From positions 1 to 64,000 of the forward strand of contig JAJXZT010000017.1 in assembly GCA_021779935.1 (NCBI GenBank): DNA of 64,000 nucleotides, given 5' to 3'. Both the position numbers and the translations under genes were made by a program. Below the pieces are notes generated by a model. The model did no database searches. It saw only the letters and a program-made list of their open reading frames with translations, and was not told where the DNA came from. Positions 933 to 45,920 of the stretch are shown one piece after another; the first letter of the stretch is position 1; the number at the start of each line of letters is the position of its first letter. The stretch comes from Acidobacteriota bacterium. Lineage in GTDB: Bacteria; Acidobacteriota; Terriglobia; Terriglobales; Acidobacteriaceae.

Positions 933-1014
933 CAATCGTCAATCAGCAATCAGCGATCGACAATCCTGCTTATCCATTCGTCATTCGAAATTCGTACTTC
1001 GTACTTCCTGAAAT
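933..1014. repeat. Degenerate heptamer array (two blocks)
   Basis: Block 1 (933-964) reads in 7-bp steps: CAATCGT, CAATCAG, CAATCAG, CGATCGA, CAAT. It matches the 32-bp inverted repeat at 44428-44459 at 29 of 32 positions. Block 2 (about 972-1014) continues with a different 7-mer: CATTCGT, CATTCGA, AATTCGT, ACTTCGT, ACTTCCT. The intergenic space is otherwise featureless. Confidence 0.75.
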
Positions 1015-44028: not shown

Positions 44029-44060
44029 ATTGACGATTGCTGATTTCTGATTGACGATTG
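44029..44060 (-). repeat. Left 32-bp inverted repeat (heptameric)
   Basis: Reverse complement of the right repeat. It is built of 7-bp steps (on the minus strand CAATCGT, CAATCAG, AAATCAG, CAATCGT, CAAT). Confidence 0.9.
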
Positions 44061-44077
44061 AGGACCTATGAATGCGG

Positions 44078-44480
44078 ATGAACAAAGATAAGGACAAAGC
44101 AGTTCGCCATTCGCATTGTGAAACTATTCCGGTCACTTCCCCGGACTGCCGAGGCGCAGGTCGTTGGCAAGCAACTGCTCAGAAGCGCGACTTCGGTGGC
44201 TGCAAACTACCGCGCCGCGTGTAGGGCCCGGTCTAAGCAGGAGTTCATTTCGAAAGTCGGCATCGTAATTGAGGAGGCTGATGAGTCAGTCTTCTGGATT
44301 GAGCTAATGGCCGACACCGGAATTCTCCCGGCAAACCGTCTTGAGGCACTGGTGCAGGAGGCGCGCGAACTTTTGGCTATCTTTGCAGCCTCGCAGCTTA
44401 CCGCCAAACGGCGCGTTAACGCGCCGCCAATCGTCAATCAGAAATCAGCAATCGTCAATTCCTCCCGACTCTCCTTATAA
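44078..44480 (+). pseudogene. S23/IVP-like four-helix-bundle protein, apparent 5' frameshift
   Basis: The intact frame (from GTG 44118) encodes the family core: KLFRSLPRTAEAQ, QLLRSATSVAANYRAACRAR, FISKVGIVIEEADES, FWIELMADTGI. Family members normally begin with a K-Q-F-A-x-R-I-V-K-L-F stretch. Those codons (QFAIRIVKLF) are present from 44100, but the only upstream ATG (44078, reading MNKDKDK) is one base out of frame; removing one base near 44099 restores it. The C-terminal end runs through the right inverted repeat. Such proteins are encoded by intervening sequences of 23S rRNA genes and as free-standing genes. It may be a decayed gene, a sequencing error or a GTG-started short form. Confidence 0.65.
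44428..44459 (+). repeat. Right 32-bp inverted repeat (heptameric)
   Basis: Steps CAATCGT, CAATCAG, AAATCAG, CAATCGT, CAAT. It ends 29 bp before the tyrS start, so it may lie in the tyrS leader. Confidence 0.9.
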
Positions 44481-44488
44481 TCGATATC

Positions 44489-45841: not shown

Positions 45842-45920
45842 TTTTCAAATTCGAAAATTCGGCAATACGAAAATTTGAAAATTTTTTCCAATCGTCAATC
45901 AGCAATCAACCATCTACAAT
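45842..45920. repeat. Octamer/heptamer array with inverted repeat
   Basis: TTTTCAAATT (45842-45851) and AATTTGAAAA (45872-45881) are perfect complements enclosing 8-bp steps TTCGAAAA, TTCGGCAA, TACGAAAA. A solo 32-bp copy follows at 45889-45920 (27 of 32 identical to 44428-44459). Upstream, from about 45783, a C/T-rich 7-bp periodic stretch (TTTTCAC, TTTCCAC, GTTTCAC) fills the rest of the tyrS-dagK gap. Confidence 0.65.

Follow-up and report, generated by a model that had tools for sequence, protein, structure and literature searches.

The locus described here raises the question of why a gene of the S23/IVP family, the family encoded by intervening sequences (IVSs) of 23S rRNA genes, lies between two protein-coding genes, framed by perfect inverted repeats. 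It is found in a 64,000-nucleotide stretch of acidobacterial DNA (the window), part of a genome of 4.49 Mb in 72 contigs, with dut (dUTPase) upstream and tyrS (tyrosyl-tRNA synthetase) downstream. S23/IVP proteins are widespread and structurally solved, and we know of no function for them. Our answer is that this unit of 431 bp represents a single copy of a small mobile element that is widespread in bacteria. Its parts, and two related repeats in the window, are as follows.

44029..44060, + strand: left arm, five cores at a 7-nt pitch (ATTG acg ATTG ctg ATTT ctg ATTG acg ATTG), recognized as a perfect inverted repeat with the same architecture in 110 of 114 S23 genes of the bacterial family.
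44428..44459, − strand: right arm, the exact reverse complement of the left arm.
44094..44381, + strand: S23/IVP domain of group B ('KQFAIRIVKL' type) in the open frame 44082-44480, matching PF05635 with 61 bits on the genome.
933..964, − strand: gene-less solo array of five cores, belonging to the same family.
About 45889..45920, − strand: another solo array of five cores from this family, located downstream of tyrS.

The two ends are each 32 nt long, 100% complementary and separated by 367 nt, which confirms the exact inverted ends that a first-pass annotation had reported around an S23/IVP gene between dut and tyrS. That annotation described them as perfect inverted repeats; the inversion is indeed exact, but the periodicity had been missed, the ends being arrays of cores, usually five. 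In the window element the pattern is (ATTGNNN)4ATTG, with one core being ATTT, giving five cores of 4 nt, one every 7 nt. The exact 32-bp repeat occurs in this pair alone, and a search of the genome for further copies found six more sites within 3 mismatches; the chance expectation for the 19-nt core of the repeat, allowing ≤3 mismatches, is 0.01 per window. Related ends had also been seen standing alone elsewhere in the window, where solo copies lie at the two places listed above. Folding of the 431-nt RNA, which the same annotation had proposed, gave a perfect 32-bp terminal stem (z = −7.3). We also noted a promoter-like site just upstream of tyrS (44452-44481), with TATAAT and a −35-like TCGTCA, the latter supplied by the right arm.

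The open reading frame 44118-44480 matched PF05635 with 52.5 bits (cut-off 33.8), which places it in the S23/IVP family, and its closest solved structure is PDB 2rld (E=7e-17; five chains). The copy itself looks frameshifted. The frame that carries the domain (44082-44480) has no ATG, and its sole listed in-frame start, the GTG at 44118, lies within the domain. The ATG at 44068, upstream of the domain, is off-frame and translates as MNADEQR followed by a stop. At the other end, the frame reads through the whole right arm before it meets a stop codon at 44480. Judging from these frames, the window copy is probably damaged by a frameshift near the N-terminus, which itself may be an assembly error.

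The same arrangement recurs widely. The window's genome has five PF05635 genes, all of which, by inspection, have inverted quasi-periodic flanks of differing motifs, one of the five loci (L011) being too diverged for scoring. S23 genes were present in 86 of the 120 genomes of the window's acidobacterial family, with up to 11 per genome. Inverted arms were found at 110 of the 114 unique S23 loci with full flanks in this family, as compared with 2.8% when flanks of different loci were swapped and 1.7% at other positions in the same loci; the median element, measured from arm to arm, is 474 bp. In a scan of public genomes, 73% of 79 usable loci (Bacteroidota, Chloroflexota, Planctomycetota, Proteobacteria, Clostridia, Fibrobacter, Cyanobacteria, CPR bacteria and others, including a few from Acidobacteria) had inverted arms (controls 2–3%), clear arms being missing at 21 of the 79 by the score used. 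All six plasmid loci that we opened, five cyanobacterial and one from Riemerella, had arms. None of the fetched loci placed S23 inside 23S rRNA in a search by short rRNA signatures, and no phage record gave an S23 match.

Comparison of orthologous sites showed that the arms and the gene are gained or lost as a single unit. For two species of one genus, both S23 sites in a 12.5-kb stretch were element-free in the sister species, and one of the two empty alleles carried a solo array of another motif. On its plasmid, Calothrix NIES-22 carries the element in an operon, where it separates an integrase gene from the following ORF; the counterparts of this operon in Tolypothrix, Aulosira, Nostoc carneum, Nodularia and Anabaena have a spacer of 3 nt there and lack arms. 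The nrdA/nrdB spacer provided another filled and empty pair. The window site itself is not occupied in every relative, as dut and tyrS are neighbours in genome G015 with no element between them. About ten target bases differ between filled and empty sites, and no clean target-site duplication was evident at the window, cyanobacterial plasmid and nrdAB sites, where the relatives compared are just 76–92% identical. The unit thus combines terminal inverted repeats with presence and absence at orthologous sites, as insertion sequences and MITEs do, and the element-free sites, together with the further arm copies in the genome, support the first-pass proposal of a small mobile element akin to rRNA intervening sequences; neither of the two outcomes named in the first pass as speaking against it, conservation at this site in all relatives or a lack of further repeat copies in the genome, was observed.

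The spacer upstream of tyrS holds S23 elements or solo arrays in several genera: an S23 gene in G024 (L023/L091) and, degraded, in G009 (L036), as well as L029 in G006. We rejected a single ancestral insertion upstream of tyrS, the G024 and G009 proteins not being the nearest relatives of the window protein and their arms being different. From the sequences, independent insertions at a favoured spot appear more likely (branch support is weak).

Within arms of the family, identity was 0.57 at a lag of 7 nt and 0.19–0.28 at other lags, and the periodic tract at pitch 7 was most often 30–31 nt, corresponding to four full units and a terminal core. Among 308 arms, five cores were scored in 149 (48%), four in 58 (19%) and six in 39 (13%), and some arrays were longer; five is therefore the modal number, with roughly half of the arms scoring differently. 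Pitches other than 7 are confined to a minority of elements (13 at pitch 8, four at pitch 9 and one at pitch 6). Median aligned arm length was 27, 30, 36 and 40.5 nt at pitch 6, 7, 8 and 9, respectively (p=0.004 for 8 versus 7). Arm length rises with pitch, and it thus appears to be the number of units, rather than the length of the arm, that is conserved, the samples at pitches 6 and 9 being very small. Solo arrays in the window's genome, collected with a three-core search pattern, had exactly five cores and sharp ends at 13 of 17 places, and in pitch-8 solo arrays, collected with a five-core pattern, a sixth core was mostly absent. The sole solved S23 structures, 2gsc and 2rld, have five chains each, and S23 of Xanthomonas is a toroidal homopentamer (PMC4990558). 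We infer, as the simplest reading, one core per S23 protomer.

The arm motif tracks the S23 lineage and not the host genome. Arms of group A are AG-based, while those of group B are ATT-based, and the subgroup of the protein was predicted from the arms in 107 of 110 cases in a leave-one-genome-out scheme, with a balanced accuracy of 0.96 versus ≤0.81 when labels were shuffled within genomes. Across genomes in group A, protein identity correlated with arm similarity (rho 0.29; the maximum of 500 permutations was 0.08). Arm similarity was no greater within the same genome (0.256) than between different genomes (0.269). The polarity of the arms is also fixed: read inward, group A arms contained TCAG 91 times and CTGA 3 times. 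Neither this coupling nor the occurrence of the same architecture around S23 genes across bacteria had been noticed in the first pass. In close orthologous pairs the dN/dS of S23 was 0.04–0.15, indicative of purifying selection, and therefore the protein is used; at fixed sites, such selection could alternatively be caused by a host function rather than by mobility.

Solo arrays, counted by pattern searches, co-occurred with S23 genes. Four-core ATTG arrays of pitch 7 were found in 11 of 16 S23-bearing and 0 of 12 S23-less genomes (Fisher p=0.00025), and five-core ATT arrays of pitch 8 in 12 of 16 and 1 of 12 (p=0.0006); these genomes are related, and both p values overstate independence. The spacers of the solo ATTG arrays often match local group B arms. 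As predicted, pitch-8 solo arrays were plentiful in G107 and G024. Contrary to a further prediction, however, they were not restricted to genomes whose S23 arms have this pitch, being found in G000, G124, G070, G120 and G064 as well. Pitch-8 solo arrays thus occur in genomes with pitch-7 S23 arms, and therefore solo arrays match the local S23 genes partially, some solo families being now without a matching S23 gene. Tight inverted pairs of solo arrays with a short spacer and no S23, forming MITE-like hairpins, were seen at L317 (G107:C14:145112-145187), G124:C11:380188-380261 and G001:C5:100779-100852. An octad repeat family (ATTTTCGA type) adjoins several solo ATTG arrays in the window's genome (L266, L279, L313), and G107, a genome rich in pitch-8 arrays, has ATTGAATC octad microsatellites of >100 bp (C45:286128-286278 and C123:7641-7755).

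Six things are shown by these data: the architecture itself, five as the modal number of cores, insertion of arms and gene as a unit, arm motifs coupled to S23 lineage, solo arrays that accompany S23 genes, and purifying selection on S23. Taking them together, we consider it probable that the small mobile element consists of an S23/IVP gene and two inverted arms that serve as recognition sites of its own S23 homopentameric ring. The ring would bind the arms of its own element, most simply with one core per protomer (five-to-five). With less certainty, S23 may act in trans, via host machinery, to spread both the element and solo arms, an idea prompted by the lack of any transposase, reverse transcriptase or RAYT that occurs consistently. 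Within a transcript, the arms can pair into a stem of ~30 bp that, by analogy with what is documented for rRNA-borne IVSs, could let RNase III excise the element from the RNA; the 32-bp terminal stem of the window RNA would be such a substrate. Excision of this kind would make insertions into operons tolerable. The wider proposal, that these are a distinct class of transposase-less elements in which a pentameric ring reads five cores, one per subunit, in arms and solo copies and drives their spread, and from which IVSs and many heptamer families originate, we put forward tentatively, as a possibility short of an even chance.

Several other explanations have to be weighed. One is a mover that acts in trans, either a RAYT (Y1) transposase or a reverse transcriptase, in the manner of REP/REPIN or diversity-generating retroelements, and the first-pass annotation, which noted correctly that no transposase is present, had counted movement in trans, through RNA or by the S23-like protein among the options. 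S23 is the sole gene between the arms of the window element, which contains no transposase of the kind that defines an insertion sequence, and other elements of the family are too short for a second gene. Y1_Tnp genes were present in 17 of 18 tested family genomes, including G000, and were more numerous in S23-rich genomes, and Avd, a relative of S23, works with a reverse transcriptase (PMC10053308). However, searches with PF01797 found nothing in Brevundimonas SH203, where S23 is clearly flanked by arms, or in Maribacter (borderline arms), which led us to reject RAYT as an obligate partner. Likewise, PF00078 had no match in the S23-rich genomes G024, G007, G090, G120 and G079, which speaks against a reverse transcriptase acting in trans; in G000 the PF00078 matches lie on other contigs (C12, C13), none beside the element as in a diversity-generating retroelement. 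We therefore consider a mover of either type very unlikely and, of the options named at the outset, favour S23 itself as the candidate. It is also quite unlikely that the arms act at the RNA level alone, as a stem cut by RNase III in the manner of an IVS, with S23 as a passenger or in an unrelated role. The terminal stem of the window RNA is in line with this reading, as are, in the Coxiella IVS, an inverted-repeat stem and heptamer repeats where RNase III cuts (PMC4990558). Pairing, however, does not account for the periodicity, nor for the way the motif tracks the protein lineage, and solo arrays without a pairing partner still keep five cores and sharp ends. Moreover, orthologous copies retain the arm motif and not its exact complementarity, the left and right arms of one element diverge as much as the left arms of orthologues, and mismatches between the left and right arms are free of G-U bias on the coding strand (104 versus 104). 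With neither wobble asymmetry nor concerted left-right change in orthologues, we rejected RNA pairing as the force that maintains the arms; these patterns are more in keeping with a protein-binding site than with an RNA stem kept by selection.

Protein binding would also be expected if S23 were an autoregulator or host regulator and the arms its operators, their dispersal having another cause. The coupling of protein to motif and the purifying selection at fixed sites agree with this, and an unidentified global regulator was proposed for paired five-heptad sites in Geobacter (PMC2700814). We nevertheless regard it as unlikely, given that whole units insert at unrelated sites and are patchy between species, and that solo arrays follow S23-bearing genomes. 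Finally, the arrays could be independent simple-sequence or G-quadruplex repeats, between or into which S23 elements merely insert. Heptamer arrays do occur without S23 in many genomes, with a G-quadruplex account in Xanthomonas and Nostoc (PMC4692102), and one empty site holds a solo array of another motif. On the other hand, the motif follows the S23 lineage and not the genome, the empty cyanobacterial operon sites have no arms, group B arms are ATTG-based and have the same unit number without G-tracts, and the tested arrays are nearly absent from S23-less genomes, so that this explanation is highly improbable.

The preferred reading, that the arms are recognition sites of the S23 ring, would bear on bacterial intergenic heptamer repeats, which have until now been interpreted as regulator sites, G-quadruplexes or simple repeats. 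If true, they are recognition arms of S23 elements, and rRNA IVSs are copies that landed in rRNA. The tie between S23 and repeats gives one testable account for a protein family without known function and for common bacterial repeats, and five cores facing a pentameric ring make a sharp and cheap prediction for binding. Two known systems are analogous. In REP/REPIN systems a RAYT master gene lies between short repeats and solo satellite repeats are dispersed; here, in contrast, a Y1 transposase is not consistently present and the arms are periodic five-core arrays. In TRAP, the ring protein of trp gene attenuation, each of eleven subunits reads one evenly spaced short repeat; the analogy extends to a ring reading repeats, and TRAP is not a mobile element.

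Closer relatives come from protein families and repeats already described. Avd of diversity-generating retroelements belongs to a homologous four-helix-bundle family (PMC10053308), whereas the window element has no adjacent reverse transcriptase. The class 3 paired sites of Geobacter metallireducens consist, like the arms, of five tandem heptanucleotides on opposite strands; they were assigned to an unidentified global regulator (IHF/HU), and S23 is unmentioned (PMC2700814). The GGGAATC-type heptamers of Xanthomonas and Nostoc are intergenic 7-nt repeats with a preference for four full units and many inverted pairs (70 in Xanthomonas, whose S23 is the solved pentamer); they were assigned to G-quadruplexes, again without mention of S23 (PMC4692102), while the arrays here are often not G-rich. 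Literature searches among openly accessible journal papers turned up none that connects S23 to heptamer arms other than in rRNA. In a survey of CRISPR systems, a figure legend names '23S rRNA IVP' among CRISPR-linked proteins (PMC10910872), where heptamer arrays near S23 might have been mistaken for CRISPR repeats.

The closest known system is the 23S rRNA IVS itself, and the kinship proposed in the first pass is supported. In Coxiella burnetii the IVS combines an S23 ORF with an inverted-repeat stem of 28 bp, and tandem heptamers lie at its RNase III site (PMC4990558), so that both kinds of element share an S23/IVP gene in the loop between complementary ends, a length of about 430 nt, an inverted-repeat stem of ~30 bp and tandem heptamers beside the ORF. 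The five-core arms and the link between motif and protein are not described in that paper. The window element differs in lying between protein genes, in the dut/tyrS spacer rather than inside an rRNA gene, and such elements are many per genome, with solo arms dispersed. Because of this location, and because no transposase was found, we describe the element as a broader relative of IVS elements, a member of neither the IVSs nor the insertion sequences; on the best reading, 23S rRNA intervening sequences are special cases of it.
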